From: Bacteroidota bacterium
GTDB taxonomy: Bacteria > Bacteroidota > Ignavibacteria > Ignavibacteriales > Melioribacteraceae
DNA length: 64,000 nucleotides
Direction of reading: 5' to 3'
NCBI GenBank assembly: GCA_018818065.1
Contig: JAHISV010000009.1
Location: forward strand, 186,001 to 250,000
Numbering within the stretch: the stretch's first letter is position 1; every line of letters starts with the position of its first letter. The notes below the pieces were generated by a model, which searched no databases, was not told the DNA's origin, and worked only from the letters and a program-made list of their open reading frames with translations. This document shows, in pieces, positions 2,400-63,998 of this stretch. The position numbers were made by a program, and so were the translations under genes.

Positions 2400-2444
2400 A
2401 AATGACTCCTTTTATTATTAAAATGGTGTTTCTATGGTTTCTAG

Positions 2445-2460
2445 TGCAAGGTTTGTACCA
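2445..2460 (-). promoter_or_regulatory. Sigma-54 (-24/-12) promoter
   Basis: On the minus strand the sequence is TGGTACAAACCTTGCA. It fits every fixed position of the sigma-54 consensus TGGYACRNNNNTTGCW, with the required ten bases between GG and GC. Transcription would start near 2434, about 35 nt before the ATG at 2399. An NtrC-type activator is encoded just upstream, and a palindrome lies at a suitable enhancer distance (2625-2650). Confidence 0.85.
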
Positions 2461-2624
2461 AACAGAGTTTTCTTTCTGATGAAGATAAATAACAGGATTT
2501 TAAGGTCTATTCATCACTTATAATCAGATAAATAGTCCTTTGCTATTGTAAGATCTGTTCCATAACTAGGAATGAATTTGACAGGCAGCAGATTAAGTTG
2601 TTATAAACCAATAGGTTAGGGATG

Positions 2625-2650
2625 TGTGAAATTGGATTTCACAGTGAAAT
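2625..2650. promoter_or_regulatory. Palindromic enhancer-like site upstream of the sigma-54 promoter
   Basis: TGTGAAAT-TGG-ATTTCACA is a perfect 8+3+8 inverted repeat at 2625-2643. It is followed one base later by another half-site, GTGAAAT (2644-2650), which makes a second perfect inverted repeat with the preceding ATTTCAC. The array lies about 165-205 bp upstream of the -24/-12 element, the usual distance for an NtrC-family activator site, and just after the activator gene's stop codon. There is no T-run, so it is not a convincing terminator. That the adjacent regulator binds here is inference. Confidence 0.6.
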
Positions 2651-2672
2651 GAATGACACGCCTTAAATAAGC

Positions 2673-5796: not shown

Positions 5797-5906
5797 GCAT
5801 TCAGTTTTATTAAATTTATTTAAAATGAAGATAGAGTACCTTGTGCATAAGTACAAACATAAAATGACACAAAACTTTCCAAAGTAATCCCGTAAGAAAG
5901 TTCGTG

Positions 5907-7151
5907 TTACAAATCCGTTTTATTTGTAATTAACCGAATACCCCTTTTCTGAAAAAGATAGTTGTAAATCCACTCAGCCATTACTTTGTATTTATTCCTA
6001 AAATTGATAAGAAAAAGAATGTGAACAAAACTCCATACAGCCCAGGCTGTAAATCCTGTTAATTTTAATCTGCCAATTTCACAAATCGCTTTGTCCCGAC
6101 CAATGGTAGCCATGCTCCCTTTATCTCTATAAATAAATCTTTCTCTCTTTTCTGATGGAATACTTTTTTTAATGATTTTGGATACATACTTCCCCTGTTG
6201 AATTGCTACCTGAGCAACACCGGGTAAGGACATTCCCTTTATATCTCTATAATTGCCGGCATCCCCAATTATAAATATTCTTTCATCCTCGGGAATTGTA
6301 CAATCACCTTTTACCATTACTCTGTCAAATCGATCCAGTTCAGTATCCAGCGTTGCTAATATTGACGAAGCAGAATTTCCGGCAGCCCAAATTATGTTTT
6401 TTGTTCTTATCGTTCTCTCATCCGTTGTAATTTCTTCAGATGTAATATTTATAACTTTCTGTCCAATAAGGGGTGTAACACCAAGATGAATCAAATCATT
6501 TCTGGCATGAATACTTAGTTTTTCATCATAAGAAGATAGTATCCTGTTTTGGCCCTCTACCAGGTAAATTTTTGTTTTAAGTGGATTGATTTTTCTAAAA
6601 TCCTTTAACATGGTTTGTTTGGATATCTCAGCAATTGCACCTGCCATCTCAACACCTGTCGGCCCGCCCCCAACAACAACAAAAGTAAGATAAGGTTCAA
6701 TATCTCGTTCATCGTAAAATCGCTCTGCCATCTCAAAAGATAGCAAAACACGTTCACGAATTTGAAGAGCATCCTGTATTGTTTTTAACCCGGGGGCATA
6801 TTTCTCCCATTCAGGATTGTTAAAATAAGAATGGCGCGTTCCCGGAGCTAAAACCAAATAATCATAATCAAGTTCGCCATGATGCAGTTTTACTTTTTTT
6901 AATTCCCTGTTTATAGAAACAACTTCACCCAGTAAGACCCGTACATTTTTCTGCTTTTTAAGTATAGACCTGATTGGTGTGGCGATATCACCAGGCGAAA
7001 GTGCAGCAGTAGCCACCTGATAAAGGAGCGGCTGGAATAAATGATGATTTGTTTTATCAATTAGAGTAATATCAAGATTTGCTTTTGCAAGTGATTTAGC
7101 GACATTGAGACCGCCGAATCCACCTCCGACAATTACTACTTTTTTCTTCAT
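5907..7151 (-). CDS. ndh: Type II NADH dehydrogenase (NDH-2)
   Basis: 414 residues. Two dinucleotide-binding motifs are visible: VIVGGGFGGLNVAKSL at the N-terminus for FAD and VVVGGGPTGVEMAGAIAE near residue 160 for NADH. The segment IFIIGDAGN near residue 295 is the second FAD motif. The C-terminal ~50 residues are hydrophobic and basic, as in the membrane-binding tail of NDH-2. The enzyme would pass electrons from NADH to quinone at the inner membrane face without pumping protons. AGGA lies ahead of the ATG. The heme-sensor kinase starts 110 bp downstream, so the regulated block begins close to a quinone-reducing enzyme. A sulfide:quinone reductase is less likely because the conserved cysteines of that family are not apparent. 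Confidence 0.9.
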   Translation of the reverse strand: MKKKVVIVGGGFGGLNVAKSLAKANLDITLIDKTNHHLFQPLLYQVATAALSPGDIATPIRSILKKQKNVRVLLGEVVSINRELKKVKLHHGELDYDYLVLAPGTRHSYFNNPEWEKYAPGLKTIQDALQIRERVLLSFEMAERFYDERDIEPYLTFVVVGGGPTGVEMAGAIAEISKQTMLKDFRKINPLKTKIYLVEGQNRILSSYDEKLSIHARNDLIHLGVTPLIGQKVINITSEEITTDERTIRTKNIIWAAGNSASSILATLDTELDRFDRVMVKGDCTIPEDERIFIIGDAGNYRDIKGMSLPGVAQVAIQQGKYVSKIIKKSIPSEKRERFIYRDKGSMATIGRDKAICEIGRLKLTGFTAWAVWSFVHILFLINFRNKYKVMAEWIYNYLFQKRGIRLITNKTDL

Positions 7152-7240
7152 TAATTTTCCTGATATGCGATATTAAGTTTTGAGGTTTAACAAGAGAATA
7201 GGAATAAAAGTGCCGTCTGGCAAATTAAGACCGGGTATTA

Positions 7241-7693
7241 TTAAACACCAAACAATTTTTTGATGTCGTCATTCTTAATCGATTTGATAGCATCCGATTC
7301 AGTCTTCGATTTTTTACTCCCCGCTAATTGCCGGGCAAAATCTTCGCTCTTAATTACTTTACAACTGCTCTTTTGCGCGAATTGCATTACACTATAATCC
7401 GAAGATATAACAGCCAGCAGCTTTGGATTATTTGAACGCATTATTTCCGTTTTAATATCATCATCAGCAGTTCGTTTATCACAATATTGCAGTCTTATTT
7501 TTGATGTGGGAATGGACTCAGCACCATACCCGTCAAAAAATATTTTAGCGTTTGGGGATTTTGAAATGAAATAATTGTCAACTTTGTAGGCGAGCTTTTC
7601 CCTGGAGGATTGCTTGTCTTTCTTTTGCAATTCCCATAACTCTGGCATTTTTCCAATTAAATTATTTCCATCAATCAGGTATTGCTTAATCAT
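7241..7693 (-). CDS. NYN-domain (YacP-like) RNA-binding protein or nuclease
   Basis: 150 residues. It opens with KQYLIDGNNLIGKMPEL, the first conserved acidic block of NYN/YacP PIN-like domains (DGNN). Further acidic residues occur in ADDDIKTEI (about 81-89) and SSDYSVMQFA (about 98-107), matching the PIN-like metal-binding pattern. The C-terminus is lysine-rich. The family is thought to act on RNA (Bacillus YacP is Rae1, a ribosome-associated nuclease), but I cannot assign a target. The start is 5 bp after the stop of the LptD-like gene, so the two are transcriptionally coupled. Confidence 0.75.
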   Translation of the reverse strand: MIKQYLIDGNNLIGKMPELWELQKKDKQSSREKLAYKVDNYFISKSPNAKIFFDGYGAESIPTSKIRLQYCDKRTADDDIKTEIMRSNNPKLLAVISSDYSVMQFAQKSSCKVIKSEDFARQLAGSKKSKTESDAIKSIKNDDIKKLFGV

Positions 7694-48701: not shown

Positions 48702-50657
48702 CTACTCTCTTATCGCCCCTCTCCACTTCAAAATAAATTTCGATCTGTCAAGCGGGTTTATTCCTTTATAGTTACGAACAACTCCAAGGTCAGTAGGACA
48801 CAGTTCATAACCATCAAAATTGTTTGATAGTTTAGCCTTTCCGCTAGTTAGTGAATTAAGACGAATTGAGTAATCCAATGATGTTGATAAGGGATATTTC
48901 CCTCGCAAGGTGAAAGAACCGTTACCAATCTCCACCGGATCGAATGATCCGCGCATATTAATTATATCACTCGTTACTTTTCCCAAGTATTCTTCGGGAG
49001 CAGAAATCCTGAATGCAATTATCGGTTCGAGCAATTTAGTGTCAGTATTTTCTAGTCCTCGCATAATGCCCATCATGGTCGCAAGTTTGAAATCTCCAGG
49101 TCGGCTGTGTACAACGTGATGTTCTCCATCAACAAGTTTGATTTTTATATCTGTAACATTCCATCCCTTAATTCCCTGCTTAAGCGCCTCAGGCAAAATC
49201 ATTTCAATTTCATTCTGGTACTTCCGCTCAATATCATTAACGCCTACTTCCGAAGAGTATGAAATTCCACTTCCCGGTTCGCCTGGTTCTATTTCGAATT
49301 TTACAACGGCCCAACAGGGTTTTGGCATGGTATAACTTTCACTCCCGTAACCTTTCTTTGCGGGTGTCTCTTTATAGATAACTGTAGGCGGTGTAATGCG
49401 TGAACCAAGATTAAATTTATTTTGAAGAAGTTCTGTCAGGATTTCAATTTGGATAGGTCCCATAATATTAACCTGCATTTCACGGTCTTCCTTGAACCAG
49501 GTAAAATTAAGATGTGGATCTTCACTACTCAGTTTTTGTAAAGCCTCGGCGAGCTCGGAATAATCCTTATCTTCCATCGGCATAACCTTAACAGTTAGCA
49601 ATGGTTCAACAAGAGAATAACCTCCGGGCACTTTTGATGGGTCACCAAGAATATCTCCAATCATCACTTCCGGCATTCCCGAAATAAACGCAATGTCGCC
49701 AGCTTCCAGTAAAGAAGTATCCTCAAATCGATCAGAAAAATACTTTTTAATCTGACTAACCTTCTCATCGCGATTGGCGGTATAGTTTTTAATAATATCA
49801 CGGTTCTTCAATGTGCCGGCAAAAAGTCGCACACCTGCTATCCTGCCCAATTTAGGATCGTGTTCAATCTTATATACAACTCCTGAAACCGGTGCATCCA
49901 CATCGTTTACCGCATCAGGGAAATATTCAATTATCATATCCAGTAACTCTTCAACTGCAATATTATTTTTTGAAACACCACATAATACCGGAAATATTTT
50001 ACAGGATATCGTCGCTTGTTTCAGAACGGTTTTCAATGCATGTAATTCAACTTTTTCCTCGTTCAAATATTTCCCGGTAAGAATGTCATCATGCTCAGAA
50101 ATGGTTTCAATCAATGATTCATTCTCAAGTGTAAAATTATCTTTCGTTGTGGCGTGTGATTCCGCCTCATTAACAGGATAGTTCAGAAGAATAAAATCTT
50201 CCCTGAACTCATGCTTTAAATCATTCATAACTCTTTGAGTACAGGCGCCAATTCTATCAACCTTGTTAATAAAAATCATAGTGGGAATTTTCATTTCCCT
50301 AAGTGCATTCCAAATCGTTTCTGTCTGCGCCTGAATACCTTCGACGGCAGAGATGACCAGAACAGCACAGTCCAGCACACGCAATGATCTCTCAACTTCG
50401 GCGGAAAAGTCAACGTGTCCCGGTGTATCAATAAGATTAATCTGAACACCTTTCCACTCGAATGAAACAGAAGCAGCTCGCACAGAAATACCACGCTCTT
50501 TTTCAACAGGCATCAGATCAGTATGACTTGTTCCTTTATCAACGTTCCCTGCTGATTTTATGCTGCCGCTGTTGAACAGCATCTGTTCGGTTAATGTGGT
50601 TTTCCCCGCATCAACGTGGGCCAGTATTCCTAAATTTCTAATTCTTCTCTTATCCAT
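48702..50657 (-). CDS. TetM-like translational GTPase with altered domain IV loop
   Basis: 651 residues, the size of ribosomal protection proteins (about 640) rather than EF-G (about 690-700). The G domain has GILAHVDAGKTTLTEQML, the switch region RGISVRAASVSF, DTPGH and NKVD. The body and C-terminus align with Tet(M)/Tet(O): GWNVTDIKI and LLEPIIAFRISAPEEYL. Where Tet(M) has the loop YYSPVSTPADF that reaches the decoding centre, this protein has HVVHSRPGDF, one residue shorter and lacking the SPV tip. Tetracycline protection is therefore doubtful, and a ribosome-rescue or unknown antibiotic role is possible. It stands alone. Confidence 0.88.
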   Translation of the reverse strand: MDKRRIRNLGILAHVDAGKTTLTEQMLFNSGSIKSAGNVDKGTSHTDLMPVEKERGISVRAASVSFEWKGVQINLIDTPGHVDFSAEVERSLRVLDCAVLVISAVEGIQAQTETIWNALREMKIPTMIFINKVDRIGACTQRVMNDLKHEFREDFILLNYPVNEAESHATTKDNFTLENESLIETISEHDDILTGKYLNEEKVELHALKTVLKQATISCKIFPVLCGVSKNNIAVEELLDMIIEYFPDAVNDVDAPVSGVVYKIEHDPKLGRIAGVRLFAGTLKNRDIIKNYTANRDEKVSQIKKYFSDRFEDTSLLEAGDIAFISGMPEVMIGDILGDPSKVPGGYSLVEPLLTVKVMPMEDKDYSELAEALQKLSSEDPHLNFTWFKEDREMQVNIMGPIQIEILTELLQNKFNLGSRITPPTVIYKETPAKKGYGSESYTMPKPCWAVVKFEIEPGEPGSGISYSSEVGVNDIERKYQNEIEMILPEALKQGIKGWNVTDIKIKLVDGEHHVVHSRPGDFKLATMMGIMRGLENTDTKLLEPIIAFRISAPEEYLGKVTSDIINMRGSFDPVEIGNGSFTLRGKYPLSTSLDYSIRLNSLTSGKAKLSNNFDGYELCPTDLGVVRNYKGINPLDRSKFILKWRGAIRE

Positions 50658-53261: not shown

Positions 53262-53291
53262 TTGACAATGAGGTCAGTTTTTTCTTATTTT
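53262..53291 (+). promoter_or_regulatory. Probable promoter of the GbsR-type regulator gene
   Basis: A perfect -35 box TTGACA (53262-53267) is followed, after 18 bp, by TATTTT (53286-53291), a four-of-six -10 match. The operator-like repeat begins directly downstream. Confidence 0.5.
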
Positions 53292-53293
53292 CA

Positions 53294-53326
53294 ATCGTTT
53301 CAAATTTTTCAAACAATCAAAACGAT
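53294..53326. promoter_or_regulatory. Operator-like repeat before the GbsR-type regulator
   Basis: ATCGTTT (53294-53300) is a perfect inverted repeat of AAACGAT (53320-53326). Within it, CGTTT...CAAAC is shared with the operator before the next gene: positions 53295-53317 match 53846-region at 17 of 23 bases. It lies immediately before the ATG at 53328, so a bound regulator would repress its own gene. Confidence 0.6.
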
Positions 53327-53327
53327 C

Positions 53328-53807
53328 ATGGATAAGAAAGAACAACTTCAGAATGACTTCATAATGAATTTTGGATATGCTTATAAATCCTTTGGGTTAA
53401 GTAAGCTAATGGGGCATGTTGTTGCTCTCCTTATCTCTTCTCCAAAACCTGTCGCACTCGAAGATATTGCCTTAACCCTTAACAGAAGTAAGGGACCAAT
53501 AAGTCAGTTGACCAGGAGACTGAGGGATAAGAATTTAATTCGCCGCGTATGGCAGCCGACTTCCAGAAAAGATTTTTACGAGATTCAACCTGAGATATTT
53601 GAAAATGCTTTCCGAAATAACCTTGACCTTATAAGAAATAACACGAACTTAGCTAAACAATATAAAGACCGAATAAAAAAGGAAGATATTAAAGATCTTG
53701 AGGTGCTAAACGAACGATTAACTGAAATGTCACGATTCTATGAGTTAATGGATAAGCACTATAAAAACTTTCTTGATGAATGGGAATTAGAAAGAAACAA
53801 TAAATAA
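53328..53807 (+). CDS. GbsR/MarR-type transcriptional regulator
   Basis: 159 residues from the ATG at 53328; an in-frame TTG at 53262 is part of a likely -35 box. The winged helix (about 25-95) includes SKLMGHVVALLISSPKPVALEDIALTLNRSKG and ISQLTRRLRDKNLIRRVW. The C-terminal half is a long helical dimerisation region. This is the pattern of GbsR (PadR/MarR-like) regulators. Related repeats lie before it and before the downstream gene, so it probably represses the whole 53.9-64 kb operon until an acid or CoA-ester inducer appears. Confidence 0.85.
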   Translation: MDKKEQLQNDFIMNFGYAYKSFGLSKLMGHVVALLISSPKPVALEDIALTLNRSKGPISQLTRRLRDKNLIRRVWQPTSRKDFYEIQPEIFENAFRNNLDLIRNNTNLAKQYKDRIKKEDIKDLEVLNERLTEMSRFYELMDKHYKNFLDEWELERNNK

Positions 53808-53845
53808 TTATATGCCCTGTTAATCAGGTGCTTTTTTGTGAATTT

Positions 53846-53878
53846 AACGTTTGATTTTTTTCAAACGTTGCAAACGTT
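53846..53878. promoter_or_regulatory. Operator-like repeat before the dehydrogenase gene
   Basis: AACGTTTGA (53846-53854) and TCAAACGTT (53861-53869) form a perfect 9+6+9 inverted repeat with a T-only spacer. A third half-site CAAACGTT follows at 53871-53878. It resembles the repeat before the regulator gene and lies 14 bp before the ATG at 53892. Confidence 0.75.
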
Positions 53879-53891
53879 AATCGAGGATTAC

Positions 53892-54629
53892 ATGAAGAAG
53901 TTAGAAAACAAGATAGCAGTAATCACAGGCGGATCACGAGGAATAGGTAAAGCTGCTGTAGAAAAATTTGTGGCTGAAGGTGCGAAAGTTGCAATATGGG
54001 ATGTGGACCAGGCAGCAGGCGCAAGTATCCAAAAAGAACTGGGTGCAGACAATATATTTGTTCAGGTTGTTGATGTTGCCTCTTTTGAGAGTGTAACAGA
54101 TGCAACAAACAAAACAGTTGAGGCTTTTGGTAAAATTGACATTCTTATTAATAATGCCGGAATTACCCGTGACGCTTCCCTGAAAAAGATGACACCCGAG
54201 CAATGGCAGCAGGTAATTGACGTAAACCTGACAGGTGTGTTTAATTGCACAAAAACTGTTTCTGCTGTTATGTTGGAAAATGGTTTTGGCCGAATTATAA
54301 ATACATCATCAGTCGTCGGATTATATGGTAACTTCGGTCAGACAAATTATGTGGCTACAAAAGCTGGCGTAATTGGAATGACAAAAGTCTGGGCGCGAGA
54401 ACTGGGACGTAAAGGAATTACTGTTAACGCTATTGCCCCCGGTTTCATAGCAACTGAAATGGTTCAGAAAATGCCGGAAAACATCCTTGCATCAATGAAA
54501 GACAAAACACCAGTTGGTCGCCTTGGGTTACCCGAAGATATCGCTAATGCATATGCTTTCCTTGCAAGTGATGAAGCATCTTTTATAAATGGAGCCGTTC
54601 TTAGTGTTGACGGCGGCTTGGTAATTTAA
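53892..54629 (+). CDS. FabG/PhaB-like short-chain dehydrogenase
   Basis: 245 residues from the ATG at 53892 (GAGG five bases upstream); a GTG at 53838 would place the operator inside the gene. The cofactor motif is VITGGSRGIGKAAVEKF, with DVAS and NNAGIT. The catalytic residues are S in NTSSVVGLYGN and Y/K in TNYVATKAGV, and the closing motif is FLASDEASFINGAVLSVDGG. It probably reduces or oxidises a 3-oxoacyl/3-hydroxyacyl thioester. In this operon it is first, before two KASIII-like enzymes. Confidence 0.93.
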   Translation: MKKLENKIAVITGGSRGIGKAAVEKFVAEGAKVAIWDVDQAAGASIQKELGADNIFVQVVDVASFESVTDATNKTVEAFGKIDILINNAGITRDASLKKMTPEQWQQVIDVNLTGVFNCTKTVSAVMLENGFGRIINTSSVVGLYGNFGQTNYVATKAGVIGMTKVWARELGRKGITVNAIAPGFIATEMVQKMPENILASMKDKTPVGRLGLPEDIANAYAFLASDEASFINGAVLSVDGGLVI

Positions 54630-54632
54630 TTA

Positions 54633-55631
54633 ATGGATAATATGAGAAATGCATATATACATTCATCCGGGTTCTTTGTACCGGAACAGGTAATTAAGAA
54701 TGATTACTTCGATAAATTACTAAACGAAAACGTTAGTGACTGGCTTGAGAAGCATGTTCAAATATTCGAGCGGAGATGGTGCAGTGAAAATGAATCAACA
54801 TCTTTTCTTGCAAAACAAGCCGCTCTCCAGGCACTTGAGAGAGGCAACGTTAATCCGGAGGATGTTGATCTTCTAATTATCGCTACTGATACGCCGGAGT
54901 TCATCTCCCCTTCTACTTCATCAAAAGTGCAGTATGAAATGGGCTTAATAAATGCTGGTACTTTCGACATTAATACAGCCTGTGCCGGGTTTGTAACAGC
55001 ACTTGATACAGCTGCCAAATATATTAAAGCTGATGAGCGATATAAAACAATTCTGGTTGTCGGCGCTTATGCCATGAGCAAGTTTCTGAACAAACTTGAT
55101 AAAAAAACTGCAAACCTTTTTGCCGATGGAGCCGGAGCGGTAGTTCTTAAATCCACTGGTTCAATAGATCAGGGATATCTTGCGAGCAAACTTATTACCA
55201 TGGGTGAATACTACTCTTATATGGGAATTTATGCGGGCGGGACCAATCAGCCAATAACAAATGAAATAATTGAGAAGAATGAGCATCTGCTTACTATCGC
55301 CAAAAAGTTTCCACCGGAAATAAATCCTAACACATGGTCTCAAATTGCCCTGGACTTATGTGTTCAGGCTAAGATAACTTTGGATGATGTGAAAATGTTT
55401 TTCTTCACTCAGATAAATATCAATAGTATCTGGGAAACAATGGAATTACTAAAACAACCCAGAGAGAAAGCGCAGACCAGCATGCACTACTATGGTTATA
55501 CAGGCTCGGCATGTATACCTATTGCATTTGAGGATGCACTAAAGCAAAATAAATTTGGAAGAGGCGATATTGTTTTATTTATCGGCTCAGGCGGCGGACT
55601 CGCATTTGCGGGCTCTGCGTTTAGATATTAA
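54633..55631 (+). CDS. KASIII-like condensing enzyme 1, incomplete triad
   Basis: 332 residues with a thiolase-fold layout like FabH. The nucleophile is kept (C117 in NTACAGF). The histidine of PHQAN is replaced by T259 (FTQIN), and the asparagine of GNTS by Y289 (GYTG). So two of the three classical residues are missing. It may transfer an acyl group without decarboxylative condensation or work with the second KASIII-like protein in the operon. The ATG lies 3 bp after the previous stop. Confidence 0.88.
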   Translation: MDNMRNAYIHSSGFFVPEQVIKNDYFDKLLNENVSDWLEKHVQIFERRWCSENESTSFLAKQAALQALERGNVNPEDVDLLIIATDTPEFISPSTSSKVQYEMGLINAGTFDINTACAGFVTALDTAAKYIKADERYKTILVVGAYAMSKFLNKLDKKTANLFADGAGAVVLKSTGSIDQGYLASKLITMGEYYSYMGIYAGGTNQPITNEIIEKNEHLLTIAKKFPPEINPNTWSQIALDLCVQAKITLDDVKMFFFTQININSIWETMELLKQPREKAQTSMHYYGYTGSACIPIAFEDALKQNKFGRGDIVLFIGSGGGLAFAGSAFRY

Positions 55632-55645
55632 TACACAGGGATATT

Positions 55646-57187
55646 ATGGCATCAAGTGAACAGATAATCGGCACCTGGATACTAATAACACTTTACTCAG
55701 TATTTATTCTCTACTTTGTTGTTAAAGGTGCTTTGAAGATTAAGAATATGTCAGATTATGCCGTGGGAAATATTTCCTTCTCACCATACGCTGTCGGTCT
55801 TTCACTTGCAGCTTCCATGACAAGCGCGGCCACTTTCGTAATTAACCCTGGCTTTATTGCTAATTACGGGTTTAGCGGTTTCATTTCTTTTGGTATTGTT
55901 TTCCCAATCGCTTCCGTAACCTCATTGATCGTTTTAACAAAAAGTTTCAGGAAATACGGAGATACCATAAAAGCACTCACTCTTGCTCAGTGGATTGGAA
56001 CAAGATACCAGAGTAAACGCTATTCACTTTTCATGGCTTTCCTCTCATTGCTGCTTATTACTTTTATTGTATTGATTATTGTTGCGCTAACCAAAGTGCT
56101 CTCAAAATCACTTAATATTGACGAATTATATATTTTGATAAGCATTGTTGTTTTCGTTTTCGGATACATGATGTTCGGCGGCGCGAATTCAATGGTATAT
56201 ACAAACACCATCCAGGCAATTATAATGCTGGTTGTCGCCTTCATTCTCTTAGGCTCGGGATATGAACATTTTCAGAATGGCATTTCAGCTTTCTTTGATG
56301 AGTTAGCTGCTATCAGTCCGGTGTTGGCGAAAACAACAAATCCCCAAAGTCCACTATTCAGGGATTTCTTTGAAATAATTTTCTGTCAGGCTGTCGTCGG
56401 ATTCGCAGTAGTATGTCAACCACATATTATTACGAAATCGCTTCTTCTAAAAAAAGAGAGTGATGTAAATAAATTTTTAATAGTGGCTGTAATTGCAGAG
56501 GTTATATTCTTCCTCGTGGTATTGACAGGTTTATATGCCAGATTCACCTTCCCTGACCTGACAGTTGCAGGCGAGCAACTTAGAAATGACGGGATCATTC
56601 CTGCATATGTTGTTAATGTATTTTCCGGAAGCGGAATTGGAGTTGCGGTTGGTCTTCTCGTTGTTCTTGGTCTAATATCCGCTGGTATGTCAACACTGGA
56701 AGGATTGGTTCAGTCCGTATCTACAACAATCACTTCTGATATTATAAAGCCTATTTTTGGAAACAGGATAAAGACTGACAAAGCACTGGTAACCATAAAC
56801 AAGTTAACAATTGCAGCGTTGGCTGTCATCTCAATAATTATTTCATACGATCAATTAATCAATCCAAAACTAAGTGTTGGTATTCTCGCTCAGAATGGTG
56901 TTTACGCCTATTTCTCAGTCGCGTTTATACCCATCCTCTTTGGGATATTTATAAAGGATGTTGATAAACGAGCACCGATAATTGCATCCCTGACAGCTTT
57001 CGTTGTGCATTTCGGCATCTATTACCTTCTGCCGGTTTTAGTCGAACAGTTCGGATTCAGTTTTGGATTTTTTGATAAGTATCTAACAGGCATTGTAAGA
57101 AATCCGGCAATTGCTTCTGCATGCGCAATCGTAACTTCTTCTCTGGTTGGATTTATTGTCCATAAATTAACAAAGCGGGCGGTGTAG
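55646..57187 (+). CDS. Sodium:solute symporter (SSS family)
   Basis: 513 residues with about 13 hydrophobic segments. The N-terminal part (SDYAVGNISFSPYAVGLSLAA, SMTSAATFVINPGFIANYG) matches the SSS family, in which the sodium site is formed by helices 1 and 8. The motif around residue 340-365 (GLISAGMSTLEGLVQSVSTTI) is the conserved helix 8 region. Neighbouring acyl-CoA ligase and KASIII genes suggest uptake of a carboxylic acid. GGGATATT precedes the ATG. Confidence 0.9.
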   Translation: MASSEQIIGTWILITLYSVFILYFVVKGALKIKNMSDYAVGNISFSPYAVGLSLAASMTSAATFVINPGFIANYGFSGFISFGIVFPIASVTSLIVLTKSFRKYGDTIKALTLAQWIGTRYQSKRYSLFMAFLSLLLITFIVLIIVALTKVLSKSLNIDELYILISIVVFVFGYMMFGGANSMVYTNTIQAIIMLVVAFILLGSGYEHFQNGISAFFDELAAISPVLAKTTNPQSPLFRDFFEIIFCQAVVGFAVVCQPHIITKSLLLKKESDVNKFLIVAVIAEVIFFLVVLTGLYARFTFPDLTVAGEQLRNDGIIPAYVVNVFSGSGIGVAVGLLVVLGLISAGMSTLEGLVQSVSTTITSDIIKPIFGNRIKTDKALVTINKLTIAALAVISIIISYDQLINPKLSVGILAQNGVYAYFSVAFIPILFGIFIKDVDKRAPIIASLTAFVVHFGIYYLLPVLVEQFGFSFGFFDKYLTGIVRNPAIASACAIVTSSLVGFIVHKLTKRAV

Positions 57188-57188
57188 C

Positions 57189-58685
57189 ATGAGTCAATTT
57201 GACTGGTTTTCAAAATGGAATATTTATACACCTGATAAAATTGCCTTTAAGGAATTAGAATCCGGCAGAAAGTTTACTTTCAAAGAGATGAATACATATT
57301 CGAGCTCGATTGCAAATATATTACAGACTAAGTATAGTATAAAAAAAGGCGACAGGGTTGGAATACTGGCTGAGAACTGTGTTGAGTTCTACATGCTTCT
57401 TGGTGCAGCACAGAAAACCGGGATAGTCATCCTTCCCTTAAACTACAGACTGACAGCAAACGAATTAGATTTTATAATCTCTGATGGCGACCCTTCACTA
57501 ATTATTTACGAAGATATATTTTTTGATAAACTGAACAATACCAATTCGTTCAAAAAGGTTTCTCAAAAACTTTCACTGGTGGAATTCAGAGAATTACTTA
57601 CAAGTGATGTTGCCGAATATATTGGCGCACCTGTCGAAGCGGATGATACTGCTCTGCTTTTATATACTGCTGGTACTACCGCTTTTCCTAAAGGAGCATA
57701 TTACACCCACGGAATGATGTTTTGGAATAGTCTGAACTCTGAAATCAGACTTGATATTACTTCAGAAGACAGGTCGATAACTGCCACACCGGCGTTTCAT
57801 ACCGGCTTTTGGAATGTGCTTGCCTCCCCGTTCATTCATCATGGAGCTTACACACTAATTGTAAAGAACTTCGACTCTGAAAAAGTTTTGCAAGCTCTTG
57901 AGGATGAAGAAGCAACAATATGGTGGGCTGTTCCTACCATGTTAAAAATGATGTCTGACTCCCCTCTCTTCGATGAAGTAAAACTAACCAACCTACGCTA
58001 CTTTATTGTCGGTGGCGAAGCCATGCCAATTCCATTAATTGAAAAATGGCATAAGAAGGGCGTGCTAATTCGTCAGGGTTATGGTTTAACTGAAGTTGGA
58101 CCGAATGTAACATCTCTGAACGCTGAGCACGCTGTTTCAAAACAAGGTTCCATTGGTACTCCAAACTTTTATATAAATACTAAGCTTGTTGATGATAAAG
58201 GAAACGAAGTAATTGGAGAAGGGACCGGTGAACTATTGTTGAATGGACCAAACGTTACACCAGGATACTGGAAGAATGAGGAAGCCACAAAAGAAACAAT
58301 AACAGATGGCTGGTTTCACACGGGTGATGTTGTAAAACGTGACGTGGATGGTTTCCTCTTTGTCGTGGATCGTATAAAAAACATGTATATCTCGGGGGGT
58401 GAAAATGTCTACCCGGTTCAGGTTGAGTGTGTAATCCGTGAGCATCCCAAGGTTGATGATGTAGCCATAATAGGCGTGCCTGACGAAAAATGGGGCGAGA
58501 CAGGGAAAGCATTTGTAGTACTTAAGAAGAATGAAACATTCACACTTGAGGAAATGACAGAGTATTGTCTCGATAAACTAGCCAAATATAAGATTCCCAA
58601 GCATCTTGAGATTATTGACGAACTGCCAAAAAATGTTGCTGGGAAAATCGACCGAAAAAGATTACACAAAGGTAAAAAGTGGTAA
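57189..58685 (+). CDS. AMP-forming acyl-CoA ligase
   Basis: 498 residues. The AMP-binding motif is LLYTAGTTAFPKGAYYTHG, in which the usual TTG-x-PKG has alanine in place of glycine. Other family motifs are normal: GYGLTEVGPN, TGDVVKRDVDGFLFVVDRIKN, SGGENVYPVQVE and the C-terminal lysine in NVAGKIDRKRL. It would make a CoA thioester from the imported acid. The product presumably feeds the SDR, KASIII-like enzymes and thiolase. Confidence 0.93.
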   Translation: MSQFDWFSKWNIYTPDKIAFKELESGRKFTFKEMNTYSSSIANILQTKYSIKKGDRVGILAENCVEFYMLLGAAQKTGIVILPLNYRLTANELDFIISDGDPSLIIYEDIFFDKLNNTNSFKKVSQKLSLVEFRELLTSDVAEYIGAPVEADDTALLLYTAGTTAFPKGAYYTHGMMFWNSLNSEIRLDITSEDRSITATPAFHTGFWNVLASPFIHHGAYTLIVKNFDSEKVLQALEDEEATIWWAVPTMLKMMSDSPLFDEVKLTNLRYFIVGGEAMPIPLIEKWHKKGVLIRQGYGLTEVGPNVTSLNAEHAVSKQGSIGTPNFYINTKLVDDKGNEVIGEGTGELLLNGPNVTPGYWKNEEATKETITDGWFHTGDVVKRDVDGFLFVVDRIKNMYISGGENVYPVQVECVIREHPKVDDVAIIGVPDEKWGETGKAFVVLKKNETFTLEEMTEYCLDKLAKYKIPKHLEIIDELPKNVAGKIDRKRLHKGKKW

Positions 58686-59713
58686 ATGAAAAAACACATA
58701 TAGGAATTTTAGGCACCGGAATCTATTTGCCTAACAATAAAGTGACAGCTGAAGAAATTGCTGATAGCACGAAAGGCAATTGGACAAAGGAAGCCATCAT
58801 TGAAAAACTTGGCATTGTTGAAAAAACAATTCCGGGCAAAAATGATGGTACTCAGGAAATGGGAGTCCGTGCCTCTTTGGATGCACTTAAAAATACCGGG
58901 ACTGATCCGGCTAAAATTGATCTAATTCTTAGCGTAGGCGAAGAGTGGAAAGAGTATCCACTGACAACAACGGGCATTTACATACAGGAAAAGATTGGCG
59001 CAACAAACGCGTGGGCAATAGACCTACAGCAAAGATGCTGCACAACAATCACGGCTATGAAAATTGCCAAAGATATGATGATAGCTGATAATGATATTAA
59101 CACCGTTCTTATCGCTGGTGGTTACCGCAATGGTGACTTTGTAAACTATGCCGATCCAAACATGTCAATGATGTATAATCTGGGCACAGGCGGTGGAGCA
59201 ATCATCCTGAAAAAGAATTTAGGAAAAAATTTACTTCTCGGTTCACATATCATCTCCGATGGCAGCATGGCGCGTGATGCTGGAGTAGAGTTTGGCGGCA
59301 CGGAAAAACCGATCACATGTGAGAACATAAATGAAGCGTCAAAATCACTTAGACTTTTCAACGCGCAGCATATGAAGGACAGGTTGAATGATATTTCCAT
59401 GGATAACTGGATGCTATGCATAAACAAGGCATTTGAGAAAAGCGGAATAGATAAATCGGAACTCGGCTATCTGGCTGTTCTCCACTTCAAGCGTTCCATG
59501 TATCATTACATGCTAAATGAGTTGGGGCTTACAGAAGAACAATCAATTTATTTAGAAAATATCGGGCATGTTGGTCAAATTGACCAGATAATTTCCATAC
59601 ACATTGCACTGGAACAAAAGAAAATAAAAGACGGAACTGTAATTGCGATGATAGCTGCCGGCATAGGGTATGCCTGGGCTGCAAATATTATACAATGGGG
59701 AACCATACATTAA
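58679..59713 (+). CDS. KASIII-like condensing enzyme 2 with a Cys-His-His set
   Basis: 344 residues. The start is GTG at 58679, overlapping the ligase stop by 7 bases, with AAAGG six bases upstream; there is no nearby ATG. The aligned nucleophile is C120 (DLQQRCC, with C121 beside it). H269 (LAVLHFK) takes the place of the PHQAN histidine, and H297 (NIGHVGQ) the place of the asparagine. The Asn-to-His change is unusual and could alter the chemistry. A heterodimer with the first KASIII-like protein is a reasonable hypothesis. Confidence 0.88.
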   Translation: MVNEKTHIGILGTGIYLPNNKVTAEEIADSTKGNWTKEAIIEKLGIVEKTIPGKNDGTQEMGVRASLDALKNTGTDPAKIDLILSVGEEWKEYPLTTTGIYIQEKIGATNAWAIDLQQRCCTTITAMKIAKDMMIADNDINTVLIAGGYRNGDFVNYADPNMSMMYNLGTGGGAIILKKNLGKNLLLGSHIISDGSMARDAGVEFGGTEKPITCENINEASKSLRLFNAQHMKDRLNDISMDNWMLCINKAFEKSGIDKSELGYLAVLHFKRSMYHYMLNELGLTEEQSIYLENIGHVGQIDQIISIHIALEQKKIKDGTVIAMIAAGIGYAWAANIIQWGTIH

Positions 59714-59735
59714 TTAATTCAAAGGAGGCTTTACA

Positions 59736-60230
59736 ATGAAAAACATTCTAGCAATTTTACTTATGCTTACACTTACAATTGGTTTTGTTGGCTGCAGCAG
59801 TGATGACGGTGGTTCAACACCAGTAGTTGAAACAGATCCATGGATTGGAACCTGGATAAGTGCGGGCGCAAATGTAGCCCCAGTACTTGCCACATATTTC
59901 AGTATTGACAGTGTACGTGTAACAATGAACGAAGATTTAACAGTTATTACTGAACAGCATGTTACAGACCAGGCATGGTCCACAACTACTGGAGTCTATG
60001 TTGTTACTAGATCTGCAACAGGTAATGTTCATAAAGTACGTTTCAACTATGCTGCATTTGAGCAAGAAGGTATATTCGAAATTACTGAAGGAAATCCAGA
60101 TACTTTCAAATTAGAAGCAGTTCAGGTAATACCGGATTATGGATTTGTACCAAGAACTCCTGAAAGTGGATTTGGATCGGATCCAACCATCGGGACAACA
60201 AATATCCAAACATATGTTAGAATTAATTAG
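59736..60230 (+). CDS. Small lipoprotein of unknown function (164 aa)
   Basis: The signal peptide ends in a lipobox (IGFVGC) followed by SSDDGG. The remainder is beta-rich with WIGTWISAGANVAPVL near the start and GVYVVTRSATGNVHKVRF later, a lipocalin-like arrangement judged by eye. AAAGGAGG precedes the ATG. Its place in the operon suggests a periplasmic or outer-membrane role in substrate handling. Confidence 0.8.
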   Translation: MKNILAILLMLTLTIGFVGCSSDDGGSTPVVETDPWIGTWISAGANVAPVLATYFSIDSVRVTMNEDLTVITEQHVTDQAWSTTTGVYVVTRSATGNVHKVRFNYAAFEQEGIFEITEGNPDTFKLEAVQVIPDYGFVPRTPESGFGSDPTIGTTNIQTYVRIN

Positions 60231-60240
60231 TATTACTCCC

Positions 60241-60264
60241 GGGGGAAGTTCATCTTCCCCCTTT
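60241..60264 (+). terminator. Stem-loop after the small lipoprotein gene
   Basis: GGGGGAAG and CTTCCCCC form a perfect 8-bp stem with a five-base loop followed by TTTAATT. The short T-run suggests partial termination inside the operon, or 3' protection of an upstream transcript segment, rather than a complete stop. Confidence 0.6.
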
Positions 60265-60301
60265 AATTCCCTTGAATTGATTTAAAAGTATGGGACTAAT
60301 C

Positions 60302-61837
60302 ATGAAAAAAATTATCTATATACCATTACTAATACTTTTCGTTATTTCACCTCTTCTGGCACAAACGGAAAAGGATTATGAGATTAAAAAAGAAATTGCG
60401 GACAAAGACGAGTTTAAATTTATTGGCTATTATTTTGTCCGCTCCGAAATATCAAATACTTACCCGACAAATGAATTCCTCAAAGGACAGGTAGTGGGAC
60501 GGTTATTCGGGGGGAATTCAACTCAAACGGGCCAGCAGTCACGATTTACTGAACAGCGCTTTATACCAATTATCGCATACTCTCCACGCCTCTTCGATGG
60601 CTACGCTACTATGCGCATGTCATTCGAATTTGACTGGACATGGGGTGATGCCAACTATGGCGCAGGTGGTAACTTTGGTGGAGCATTTGGTGCTGACTTT
60701 GTGAACATGCAGACACAGAATTTATTTATTGAATTCAGACCGCAGAAAAACTTCTTTCTGAATGTGGGTTTGACGAGACTATTTGATAATATCAGAGTTC
60801 CGGCATATACATTTACCGAGGATCTCGTTCATACCGGCTACCGACTAGCCCTTTTCGGATCTGATGCTACAGGCGCGGCAGCGCATTATCTGTTGGATGA
60901 TATGAGATTTAAAGCAGGTGTTTACCAACTCTACGAAAATAATGTAAATGAAAATGATGATGTCGGGTTATTCGAGTTTGATTTTGAATATGATCTCGAT
61001 ATTAAAAATTCAATAGGACTTTCACTTTATTATCTTAAAGATCATGGCAATGGCGAAGGTGGTGTCTCAATCCTCGGACAGGGTTTAAACTCCGGTCTAA
61101 GCAATTACAACGGTGTTTTCAATTTCGATTTTGGCAACGAAGATTACATAGCAAATGTACTTTGGCTGGGAACACACTTCCATGGCGATCCAACCTTAAA
61201 ACAAGGTCGTTTCGGATACGGAGGTTTTGCCTTTGCCAACCTTGGAACTGCTGAGACGGCTACTCAGAAAGTTGATATTTTGGGTTTTGGTGCGAATCTT
61301 AGATTAGCATACAAATACGGCAGAAATCGGAATGACTTTGTTGCACTCGATGGTACATTTACAACAGGAGATAAGCAAAACATTCGTGACGGTAAATATA
61401 ATGGTGTTCTAACTGGTAATAACTGGACGGCGCCCGGTGCAGTATTTTTCAGTCATGGTTTGTACTTACTTCTACCTCATGGTAACGTCGTAAACCGCTT
61501 TAATGCTGCAGTTATAGACATTCAAAATGTTGGTTATGGTCTTGCCGCGGCATCCTTGGTTGGATCGTATGATATAATCCCAAATAAGTTAAAAGCTAAA
61601 ACCGGTTTGGGTATGGGGATAGCAACAGTATCACCAACTGACGGTGGAAGCACAATTGGAACAGAAATAAACTTCAACCTGCTCTACAAGCTAAAGGTTT
61701 TTATGGATCTTGAACTCCATGCAGCTTATCTAAGCCTTGGTGATTTTTACGATTCGAAAGTCGTTAATGGTAATTCTCTCACCCGACCAGAGAACCCATG
61801 GGTGTTCTTTGCATCACTAAAATGGATAATGTTTTAA
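60302..61837 (+). CDS. Outer-membrane beta-barrel protein
   Basis: 511 residues from the ATG at 60302 (an ATG at 60290 is also possible). The signal peptide (KKIIYIPLLILFVISPLLAQ) is followed by alternating amphipathic strands rich in aromatic residues, for example NLFIEFRPQKNFFLNVGLTRLF and KLKVFMDLELHAAYLSLG. The chain ends in an aromatic residue (SLKWIMF), as outer-membrane barrels do. No plug or TonB box is seen, so a porin-like channel for the operon's substrate is the best guess. Confidence 0.78.
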   Translation: MKKIIYIPLLILFVISPLLAQTEKDYEIKKEIADKDEFKFIGYYFVRSEISNTYPTNEFLKGQVVGRLFGGNSTQTGQQSRFTEQRFIPIIAYSPRLFDGYATMRMSFEFDWTWGDANYGAGGNFGGAFGADFVNMQTQNLFIEFRPQKNFFLNVGLTRLFDNIRVPAYTFTEDLVHTGYRLALFGSDATGAAAHYLLDDMRFKAGVYQLYENNVNENDDVGLFEFDFEYDLDIKNSIGLSLYYLKDHGNGEGGVSILGQGLNSGLSNYNGVFNFDFGNEDYIANVLWLGTHFHGDPTLKQGRFGYGGFAFANLGTAETATQKVDILGFGANLRLAYKYGRNRNDFVALDGTFTTGDKQNIRDGKYNGVLTGNNWTAPGAVFFSHGLYLLLPHGNVVNRFNAAVIDIQNVGYGLAAASLVGSYDIIPNKLKAKTGLGMGIATVSPTDGGSTIGTEINFNLLYKLKVFMDLELHAAYLSLGDFYDSKVVNGNSLTRPENPWVFFASLKWIMF

Positions 61838-61848
61838 GGAGGACACCA

Positions 61849-62799
61849 ATGAAAAATTTAATAAAATCTATAATAATTTTGGCAACCATTATGGTAACAG
61901 GATGTTCGACTTCCTACTTCTACAACATGGAATCCAAAGAGTTTGATGAAATTGATTACCAGTACAAGGTAGAAAAAGTTAAAATCAAAAATATAAATCT
62001 AGCCTATATTGATGAGGGCTCTGGCGACCAGACTTTCCTCTTAATTCATGGTCTTGGCTCCAATGCAAAAGGCTGGCTGAAGAATATTGATGCACTGTCG
62101 AAAGAAGGGCGTGTTCTTGCAATAGACCTCCCGGGTTATGGTAAATCCGATAAAGAATACTATAAATACTCCCTGGAATTTTATGCTGATGTTCTTACTC
62201 AATTTCTAACAAAGTGTGATGTTGAAAAAGCTATTTTTGTCGGTCACTCCATGGGCGGACAAATCAGCATGATCACTTCCATGAAATATCCTGACAGAGT
62301 TGAAAAACTTGTACTCATCTCCCCTGCCGGATTTGAAAAGTTTGATGAAGGCGAAGGCGCGTGGATGAAAAAGGTAATGACAGTTGAACTGATACAGGAT
62401 ACGCCGACACGCAGCATTGATATGAATCTTCGCTCGAATTTTTATGATACTCCTGATGAAGCGCTGTTCATGGTTACAGACCGCATTCAGGTTAAAGGCG
62501 CAAAGGATTTTGAGAAGTATTGTTATGCAGTCTCAAAAAATGTAACTTCCATGATTGATGAGCCGGTCTGGGATAAATTAGAGCTGATTTCTCACCCAAC
62601 TCTTATTATATTTGGGGAGAATGATGGACTGATTCCAAATCCTTATTTGCATGGCGGCAATACTGTCTCTATTGGCAATATCGGCAAGGAAACTATTCCC
62701 GATAGTAAACTCGTTATGATACCAGAGTGCGGACATTTTGCACAGTTCGAAAAATTTGAGATTGTAAATAAAGAGATAATTGATTTTACCAAAGAATGA
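61849..62799 (+). CDS. Alpha/beta-hydrolase lipoprotein
   Basis: 316 residues from the ATG at 61849, with AAGGAGG upstream; the longer frame would overlap the barrel gene. The lipobox is IMVTGC. The fold shows the oxyanion segment LIHGLGSNAKGW, the nucleophile elbow GHSMGG, the acid in FGENDGLIP and the histidine in ECGHFAQFE. It could hydrolyse an ester or lactone outside the inner membrane before uptake. Its stop overlaps the thiolase region by four bases. Confidence 0.9.
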   Translation: MKNLIKSIIILATIMVTGCSTSYFYNMESKEFDEIDYQYKVEKVKIKNINLAYIDEGSGDQTFLLIHGLGSNAKGWLKNIDALSKEGRVLAIDLPGYGKSDKEYYKYSLEFYADVLTQFLTKCDVEKAIFVGHSMGGQISMITSMKYPDRVEKLVLISPAGFEKFDEGEGAWMKKVMTVELIQDTPTRSIDMNLRSNFYDTPDEALFMVTDRIQVKGAKDFEKYCYAVSKNVTSMIDEPVWDKLELISHPTLIIFGENDGLIPNPYLHGGNTVSIGNIGKETIPDSKLVMIPECGHFAQFEKFEIVNKEIIDFTKE

Positions 62800-62807
62800 G
62801 GATTATA

Positions 62808-63998
62808 ATGGCTGAATTAAGAGAAGTATACATTGTCGATGCTGTAAGGACACCTATTGGTTCCTTCATGGGTTCGCTAAGTACAATATCAGCTCCAAAA
62901 CTCGGGAGTGTTGTTATTAAAGCCTTACTTGAAAGAACAGGTGTTAGCAAAGACATTATTGATGAAGTAATTATGGGAAATGTTGTTCAAGCGGGTGTTG
63001 GCCAGGCGCCGGCCAGACAAGCTGCCCTTGGGGCCGGTTTGAATGAGTCAACACAATGCTTGACTATTAATAAAGTGTGTGGTTCCGGACTAAAATCTGT
63101 TATGTTAGGTGCTCAAGCTATTATGACAGGTGACGCCGACGTAATCATTGCCGGCGGCATGGAAAACATGAGTCAGATCCCTCATTACCTTATGGGTACA
63201 AGAACCGGGTATAAAATGGGTGATCAGAAGCTGATTGACGGTATGATTAAAGATGGACTTTGTAATCCTTACGACGGACAGCATATGGGAAGCATAGCTG
63301 AAATGACCGCGAAGGAATATAACATTACCCGTGAAGATCAGGATACATTTGCGGAAGAGAGTTATAAAAAATCATTAGCCGCCATAGAAGCTGGGACTTT
63401 CAAGGCAGAAATTGTACCGGTCGAAATTCCACAAAGAAAAGGCGACCCGATAGTTGTCGACACAGACGAAGAACCGGGTAATGTGAAATTTGATAAAATC
63501 AGGACTCTTCGTCCAGCCTTTGACAAGGAAGGAACGATTACTGCCGCAAATGCATCTTCAATAAATGACGGCGCCGCAGCAATTTTATTAATGTCCGGTG
63601 AAAAAGTCAAAGAGCTTAATCTAACTCCAATGGCTAAGATTGTTGCTCAGGCTTCTGCGGCAAAAGCTCCTCACTGGTTCACAACTGCTCCGGCTGATGC
63701 TATCAGCAAAGTATTGAATAAAGCAGGTCTTACTAAAGACGACATTGATTTATTCGAAATTAATGAAGCATTTTCAGTTGTTTCACTTGTGGTGAATAAA
63801 ATAGCTGAGTTAGATTCATCCAAAATAAATATTGATGGCGGAGCGGTTTCACTAGGTCATCCTATTGGCGCCAGCGGCGCAAGAATACTAACTACACTGT
63901 TGCATGCTATGAAGCGAAAAGATGTTAAAACTGGTTTAGCTTCTTTATGTATTGGAGGTGGCGAGGCTTCTGCATTGGTTTTAGAGAGGATTATCTAA
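62808..63998 (+). CDS. Acetyl-CoA C-acetyltransferase (thiolase)
   Basis: 396 residues from the ATG at 62808, with GAGG six bases upstream; an ATG at 62796 overlaps the previous stop and is possible. The acyl-binding nucleophile is C91 in NKVCGSGLKSV. The other thiolase motifs are NEAF, GGAVSLGHPIGASGARI and the second cysteine in LCIGGGEAS. It reversibly cleaves 3-oxoacyl-CoA to acetyl-CoA and a shorter acyl-CoA. It is the last visible gene of the operon and ends 2 bp before the window edge. Confidence 0.96.
   Translation: MAELREVYIVDAVRTPIGSFMGSLSTISAPKLGSVVIKALLERTGVSKDIIDEVIMGNVVQAGVGQAPARQAALGAGLNESTQCLTINKVCGSGLKSVMLGAQAIMTGDADVIIAGGMENMSQIPHYLMGTRTGYKMGDQKLIDGMIKDGLCNPYDGQHMGSIAEMTAKEYNITREDQDTFAEESYKKSLAAIEAGTFKAEIVPVEIPQRKGDPIVVDTDEEPGNVKFDKIRTLRPAFDKEGTITAANASSINDGAAAILLMSGEKVKELNLTPMAKIVAQASAAKAPHWFTTAPADAISKVLNKAGLTKDDIDLFEINEAFSVVSLVVNKIAELDSSKINIDGGAVSLGHPIGASGARILTTLLHAMKRKDVKTGLASLCIGGGEASALVLERII

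Follow-up and report, generated by a model that had tools for sequence, protein, structure and literature searches.

The window, a stretch of 64,000 nucleotides from a member of the Bacteroidota, contains a conserved block of ten genes (Table 1), two of which are intact open reading frames for KASIII-like proteins of 332 and 344 amino acids, here referred to as E1 and E2. For the regulator that opens the block the match to Pfam HTH_27 was just under the cut-off, and the gene adjoins the SDR-E1 pair in most Bacteroidota operons. The SDR, whose relatives in the PDB include FabG, (3R)-hydroxyacyl-CoA dehydrogenase and acetoacetyl-CoA reductase, is by its sequence likely an (R)-3-hydroxyacyl-CoA dehydrogenase, with an internal ATG near 53892 as the probable start. 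Several components are exchanged in related clusters. In Bacillota a LIV-type ABC transporter stands in for the SSF symporter, as does an MFS transporter in some Bacteroidota. Bacteroidales and Bacillota have a gene resembling butyryl-CoA:acetate CoA-transferase in place of the ligase (443 bits to the PRK06839-type model, under the cut-off of 748), and a TonB-dependent receptor occurs in some E1-only clusters that lack the barrel protein. The alpha/beta hydrolase, which probably starts near 61849, is syntenic in Bacteroidota, and Bacillota clusters have cytosolic alpha/beta hydrolases. The thiolase was the only one found in this 87%-complete genome; it is followed by unrelated cytochrome genes.

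Table 1. Genes of the conserved block at 53262–63998 of the window.
Feature	Position	Strand	Basis or remark
GbsR/MarR-type winged-helix regulator, first gene of the block	53262..53807	+	NCBIfam CudC choline regulator, 31 bits (weak)
SDR, FabG/acetoacetyl-CoA-reductase type	53838..54629	+	NF004198, 305.7 bits (cut-off 296); AcAcCoA_reduct, 277.6 bits
E1, KASIII fold; C117/T259/N262/Y289, acidic D86	54633..55631	+	Domains, alignment, model
Sodium:solute symporter (SSF)	55646..57187	+	Pfam SSF, 135 bits
Acyl-CoA ligase (AMP-binding)	57189..58685	+	Pfam AMP-binding, 245.6 bits
E2, KASIII fold, NCBIfam PRK06840; C120/L268/K271/H297, acidic E89	58679..59713	+	NF005308, alignment, model
Small lipoprotein, syntenic in Bacteroidota	59736..60230	+	No Pfam family
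Signal-peptide protein, probable outer-membrane barrel	60290..61837	+	No Pfam family; barrel inferred from sequence
Alpha/beta hydrolase, lipoprotein-type N-terminus	61798..62799	+	Abhydrolase_1, 108.5 bits
Acetyl-CoA acetyltransferase (thiolase), last operon gene	62796..63998	+	TIGR01930, 461 bits (cut-off 240)

E1 and E2 are genuine members of the KASIII/FabH-like fold within the thiolase superfamily. Both exceeded the Pfam cut-offs for ACP_syn_III and ACP_syn_III_C, their AF2 models reached pLDDT values of 91.3 (E1) and 93.3 (E2), and Foldseek comparison of these models with FabH gave TM scores of about 0.80–0.93. Scores against the fabH model TIGR00747 (206 bits for E1, 94 for E2) remained below its cut-off of 292 bits. 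E2 was assigned to NCBIfam NF005308 (PRK06840; 457.5 bits, curated cut-off 315), and at least 412 relatives of E2 were confirmed among the matches listed; the name PRK06840 did not occur in any paper listed by a literature search. In a three-way alignment, E1 and E2 share 23% identity, and the genome's own FabH is 33% identical to E1 and 23% to E2. As E1 is thus nearer to FabH and E2 forms a separate long branch, the two are not recent duplicates.

The ordinary FabH, which is encoded elsewhere in the genome (C9), has an intact Cys-His-Asn triad, so the deviations in E1 (Cys-Thr-Tyr) and E2 (Cys-Leu-His) at the same positions are not an alignment artefact. C117, T259 and Y289 of E1 correspond to C112, H244 and N274 of EcFabH, in agreement with the sequence-only reading, which had described a retained Cys with Thr and Tyr in place of His and Asn. 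All three residues were invariant in an alignment of 45 operon-associated members; among a further 20, Cys and Tyr were found in 20/20 and Thr in 19/20 (one Ser). The acidic D86 was also near-invariant in the E1 family. In E2, C120 occupies the nucleophile position, K271 the N247 position and H297 the N274 position, the first and last of these as proposed earlier. H269, previously taken for the catalytic His, had been misread by one residue: phmmer, a MAFFT alignment that took in 129 relatives and the three-way alignment all placed L268 at H244 and H269 at Q245, and the AF2 secondary structure (strand end +1, helix start -4) likewise pointed to T259 in E1 and L268 in E2. Although 83 close relatives of E2 share H269, the divergent L010 (45% identical) has Leu there and L191 (32%) has Phe. 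Both retain C120, K271, H297 and E89, which are near-invariant in the E2 family. The register and these divergent members rule out H269 as catalytic His. With E2 thus reading Cys-Leu-His plus K271, both paralogs have lost the FabH His and both keep the Cys; the changes are not complementary, contrary to the initial proposal, and aligning the sequences restored a classical His and Asn in neither of them.

A division of labor in a heterodimer had been suggested by analogy with PqsBC. The genes for E1 and E2 belong to one operon in the window as well as in Bacteroidales, and KASIII heterodimers have precedent: PqsB lacks all three catalytic residues while PqsC keeps Cys-129 and His-269 (PMC4807248), and LstB is always co-clustered with LstA according to a review (PMC12141560), which also reports for LstA and LstB the same identity as found for E1 and E2. 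However, E2 was missing from 49 of the 56 Bacteroidota genomes that carry E1, and E1 from 29 of the 32 Bacillota genomes that carry E2. The operons were otherwise similar in gene content, and the catalytic residues of both proteins were unchanged with or without the partner. The constant co-occurrence expected of partners in a heterodimer of the PqsBC or LstAB kind is not seen here. E1 and E2 resemble PqsBC in being KASIII-fold proteins with non-standard triads, but both possess the Cys, neither has a His at the H244 position, and no subunit lacks the nucleophile. Since each often occurs without the other, it is improbable that E1 and E2 are complementary parts of a single enzyme. The genomic distribution contradicts an obligate heterodimer, and a functional pair of the PqsBC or LstAB kind is very improbable; a facultative complex may form where both genes co-occur.

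The gene neighborhoods of this widespread operon suggest a catabolic role. Of the 49 E2 loci flanked by 7 kb or more of sequence in either direction, all had a CoA ligase or CoA-transferase, 43 a transporter and 38 an SDR, and E1 loci without E2 had the same gene content. Shared neighbors comprise a 3-hydroxyacyl-CoA dehydrogenase-like SDR, the CoA ligase or CoA-transferase, an acid transporter, an alpha/beta hydrolase and often a thiolase; MaoC hydratase genes lie beside some E2 loci, and AtoDA/AtoE-like genes adjoin some of those in Clostridium. The name of NF005308 implies an ACP synthase, whereas its members lack the FabH His and Asn and are located beside CoA-activation and uptake genes.

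The neighbor of E2 in the Bacillota locus L051 scored 412 bits against the PHB depolymerase family NF050089 (cut-off 300) and 337 bits against PDB 8ynv, which identifies it by sequence as a predicted intracellular scl-PHA depolymerase (PhaZ). A PHB depolymerase was located within 9.5 kb of E2 in 11 of 21 LIV-type loci and was present in 22 of 33 Bacillota genomes with E2. Of 148 genomes of one class, 3 carried E2, and precisely these 3 carried the depolymerase (Fisher p = 1.9e-6, with genomes that are not independent of each other). A search of seven E1/E2 genomes from the Bacteroidota side, that of the window among them, yielded no PHB depolymerase, so that for the window a 3-hydroxybutyrate substrate rests on the shared SDR, CoA-activation and hydrolase genes. 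Storage PHB was rejected as substrate source, the PHB synthase N-domain being above the cut-off in only 3 of 30 genomes and with weak scores. Carnitine and phloroglucinol catabolism were also rejected, as the literature examined contained no KASIII step for either, and the triacetate lyase that acts in phloroglucinol breakdown is a member of another family. The LIV-type binding protein and the ligase did not narrow the substrate. The same enzymes could act on another short acid, such as a branched or aromatic 3-hydroxy-acid, crotonate, 4-hydroxybutyrate or an acetoacetate derivative: the CoA-transferase reached 298 bits against butyryl-CoA:acetate CoA-transferase (cut-off 675), the ligase exceeded no listed equivalog cut-off, and the transporter class differs between clusters. 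We regard this as unlikely in view of the depolymerase association in Bacillota and the similarity of the SDR to acetoacetyl-CoA reductase.

Regarding the chemistry, E1 and E2 have the fold and the nucleophilic Cys in common with FabH but differ in the replacement of His244/Asn274 by Thr/Tyr and Leu/His, respectively, and in their catabolic context. In a sequence alignment, the catalytic TES Glu of HMG-CoA synthase coincided with D86 of E1 and E89 of E2. The loss of the His/Asn pair together with an acid at this position in both families supports non-decarboxylating chemistry, which lends indirect backing to the earlier suggestion of acyl transfer without decarboxylation. The best reading takes E1 and E2 for Cys-dependent acyl-CoA enzymes that evolved independently and do not decarboxylate, and whose reaction would most likely be retro-Claisen (thiolase-like) or ester-thiolysing. 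HMG-CoA synthase is very distant in the tree and has a His at the H244 position that both proteins lack; the best score against its family was about 69 bits, below the cut-off of 244. Within the KASIII fold, OleA sets a precedent for a Claisen reaction that proceeds without decarboxylation and has a Glu as base (PMC7064751), but its Glu117 is donated by the other subunit, differs in position from D86 and E89, and serves a biosynthetic enzyme. The site estimated to correspond to OleA Glu117-Pro (F87-P88 of FabH) aligned with S92-P93 in E1 and Y93-P94 in E2. A forward, non-decarboxylating Claisen or aldol synthesis in the manner of OleA or HMG-CoA synthase, yielding a branched or 3-oxo product, would agree with the acid at the HMG-CoA-synthase-type position and with OleA and other condensing KASIII enzymes among the Foldseek matches of E2. 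It appears improbable, however, given the non-acidic residues at the estimated OleA position, the dominance of uptake, hydrolase and CoA-activation genes in the operon, and the fact that no export or tailoring genes were seen in the examined E1/E2 clusters.

We tentatively interpret the operon, with somewhat less than even confidence, as serving the uptake and catabolism of (R)-3-hydroxybutyrate-type acids or oligomers, with E1 and E2 as putative non-decarboxylating, retro-Claisen enzymes. The substrate, presumably one of the short 3-hydroxy-acids, would most likely be (R)-3-hydroxybutyrate or its small oligomers from environmental PHB, which the surface hydrolase and the barrel protein may cleave and admit. 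Import of the acid by the SSF symporter, formation of the CoA thioester by the ligase (elsewhere by the CoA-transferase) and oxidation of the 3-hydroxyl group by the SDR could then follow, and the thiolase would yield acetyl-CoA. E1 and E2 would act separately, presumably as homodimers. Their Cys would take up the acyl group, D86 or E89 could serve as general acid/base, and T259/Y289 in E1 or K271/H297 in E2 may stand in for the His/Asn pair of oxyanion stabilization and decarboxylation. CoA-dependent C-C cleavage of a 3-oxoacyl-CoA would be the most likely reaction.

In an alternative for the same operon, E1 and E2 would work as acyltransferases and use CoA to split the esters of oligo-(3-hydroxyacids): the ester carbonyl would be attacked by the Cys, the alcohol would leave and the acyl-enzyme would be released to CoA, thereby saving the energy of the ester bond. 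The KASIII fold includes O-acyltransferases such as CerJ, which was among the weak PDB matches of E2; the association with PHB depolymerases and hydrolases and the CoA-activating gene at every E2 locus counted would also fit. CerJ-type enzymes, however, retain the His at the H244 position that is missing from E1 and E2, and with a hydrolase nearly always close by ester thiolysis is not required, so that we assign this alternative a low probability.

A classical thiolase, which the window operon itself encodes and which 34 of the 35 genomes tested possess, speaks against the retro-Claisen reading, as it leaves no obvious need for a second thiolase of KASIII fold. The exception, G243, does not prove that E1 or E2 replaces thiolase, since a more sensitive search revealed a divergent protein with a thiolase domain in the same cluster. 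Where thiolases have their second catalytic residue, as part of a Gly-His pair, E2 carries such a pair as well. In contrast to thiolases, E2 showed no match to a Pfam thiolase family at E 0.001 and no second thiolase Cys by eye, and a separate thiolase is encoded in the operon. A wider reading is conceivable but doubtful, namely that two KASIII lineages annotated as 3-oxoacyl-ACP synthases in Bacteroidota, Bacillota and Bdellovibrionota independently lost His and Asn and gained an acid, giving the new sites Cys-Asp-Thr-Tyr and Cys-Glu-Lys-His for catabolic CoA-dependent cleavage of C-C (or ester) bonds, devoted to the use of PHB-derived 3-hydroxybutyrate oligomers. If this chemistry is true, the KASIII fold was turned catabolic twice with different catalytic residues, which would make the two families a clean test case for loss and replacement of decarboxylating condensation. 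Relatives of E2 occur in hundreds of genomes, in a family that bears the name 3-oxoacyl-ACP synthase, and an unrecognized step in the use of short hydroxy-acids, possibly derived from bioplastics, as carbon source may thus be hidden as fatty-acid synthesis.

Both KASIII open reading frames (ORFs) of the sequence-only reading, E1 and E2, were recovered intact on the plus strand among mechanically called ORFs. Each contains the Pfam domains ACP_syn_III and ACP_syn_III_C; E2 clearly belongs to NCBIfam PRK06840 (457.5 bits versus a cut-off of 315), and E1 matches no NCBIfam equivalog. AlphaFold2 modelled both proteins with confidence (pLDDT 91.3 for E1, 93.3 for E2), and both match FabH structures in Foldseek; none of the solved structures falls within either family. 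In a quick tree of 48 rows, E2 formed one long branch with full support and E1 was set apart from it, closer to FabH. A lone oddity on a very long branch inside the E1 group (L132, from the genome of locus L112) is an E1-like KAS with Ser replacing Thr259 and Tyr retained, possibly another remodelled variant.

Residues were compared with E. coli FabH as numbering reference, whose register was confirmed independently by PDB alignments and the window genome's own FabH. This separate, ordinary FabH has an intact Cys-His-Asn triad. E1 has C117, T259 at His244, N262 at Asn247 and Y289 at Asn274, in agreement with the Thr and Tyr replacements originally proposed. Its Cys, Thr and Tyr are invariant in all 45 operon-associated members; 20 further E1 proteins, encoded at loci that lack E2, all keep Cys and Tyr, and Thr is found in 19 of them, with Ser in one. 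E2 has C120, L268 at His244, K271 at Asn247 and H297 at Asn274, none of which varies across 84 aligned sequences. The earlier assignment of C120 and of His at the Asn position thus held, whereas H269, the supposed catalytic His, falls at Gln245 in every alignment, a placement also supported by predicted secondary-structure boundaries. Close E2 relatives keep H269; two divergent ones, L010 and L191, have Leu and Phe there, respectively, and retain the Cys, Lys, His297 and Glu89 of E2. No alignment restored a classical His and Asn, the pairs being Thr/Tyr in E1 and Leu/His in E2. Each family also has an invariant acid (D86 in E1, E89 in E2), which in the sequence alignment matches the TES-motif Glu of HMG-CoA synthase homologues, the general base of that enzyme.

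Since decarboxylation of malonyl-ACP is carried out by the His and Asn pair (PMC4807248), E1 and E2 lack the decarboxylating residues. OleA, of KASIII-type fold, performs Claisen chemistry without decarboxylation using a Glu base (PMC7064751) and offers a precedent. With His and Asn lost and OleA as precedent, a retro-Claisen or related acyl-CoA reaction is the favoured reading; its main rival is ester thiolysis. Thiolases are already encoded in these genomes; the simplest answer to why an extra enzyme would be needed is that it may serve another chain length or substitution. Genome G243, whose locus L039 encodes a thiolase-like ORF (see table), contains no standard thiolase.

The window block comprises, with short gaps or overlaps, a regulator, a short-chain dehydrogenase (SDR), E1, a sodium:solute symporter, an acyl-CoA ligase, E2, a lipoprotein, a probable barrel, a lipoprotein alpha/beta hydrolase and a thiolase, followed downstream by an unrelated multihaem cytochrome set. 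Related genomes from the same family as the window keep this order. The ligase is replaced by a butyryl-CoA:acetate CoA-transferase-like gene in Bacteroidales and the symporter by a LIV-type ABC transporter in Bacillota, and a ligase or CoA-transferase lies at most 9.5 kb from E2 in all 49 E2 loci that are flanked on both sides by 7 kb or more. Five loci (L089, L096, L097, L105 and L117) carry a minimal module of sigma-54 regulator, E2 and CoA-transferase, beside arginine deiminase pathway genes in L089, L096 and L117. The divergent E2-type gene of L191 adjoins a CoA ligase, two alpha/beta hydrolases and a LIV-type ABC transporter.

A survey of the window's phylum, covering about 390 genomes, found E1 (E <= 1e-70) in 56 and E2 (over cut-off) in seven; like the other homologue counts, these numbers vary with the score cut-offs. 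All seven also have E1, which occurs alone in 49 of 56; in 20 E1 loci read closely, the SDR, ligase, transporter and hydrolase were found again with no E2 nearby. An E1-level match, scoring at least 460 bits, occurs in only three of 32 E2-bearing Bacillota genomes (the next best match, at 255 bits, is taken to be FabH), leaving E2 without E1 in 29. The suggested PqsBC-like heterodimer is therefore not an obligate pairing: found separately in similar operons, E1 and E2 are exchangeable or additive parts.

A substrate clue came from several Bacillota, in which the alpha/beta hydrolase adjoining E2 is an intracellular short-chain PHA depolymerase (NF050089, 412 bits versus a cut-off of 300; 337 bits against PDB 8ynv). 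Of 148 genomes sampled from a single class, three contain the depolymerase and the same three contain E2, counted over cut-off (p 1.9e-6, which overstates the case because the genomes are not independent). The depolymerase is common in Bacillota E2 genomes (22/33), yet PHB synthase is rare among the tested genomes, suggesting an external source of substrate, either polymer or oligomers. A search of the window's own lineage found no intracellular depolymerase; a surface hydrolase is present there. The KAS-like run in Maledivibacter halophilus looks like a biosynthetic cluster.

Coordinates of E1, E2 and further features in the window and in other loci
Feature	Location	Strand	Length (aa)
E1, KASIII fold	window 54633-55631	+	332
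E2, KASIII fold	window 58679-59713	+	344
Putative EF-G-like GTPase, resembling ribosomal-protection (Tet-type) protein	window 48702-50657	-	651
Ferredoxin/oxidoreductase-like protein, then two consecutive multihaem cytochrome proteins very rich in CxxCH	L190 (just downstream of window) 1308-7638		521, 1149 (cytochromes)
Two adjacent, closely similar TetR-type regulators	L190 9340-10825		195 each
Second, divergent E2-type gene (32% identical)	L191 9691-10785		
ORF in cluster, weak thiolase C-terminal domain	L039 16472-17732		419
Six KAS-like matches in a run, Maledivibacter halophilus (G419, genome of L108)	C16:114833-125418
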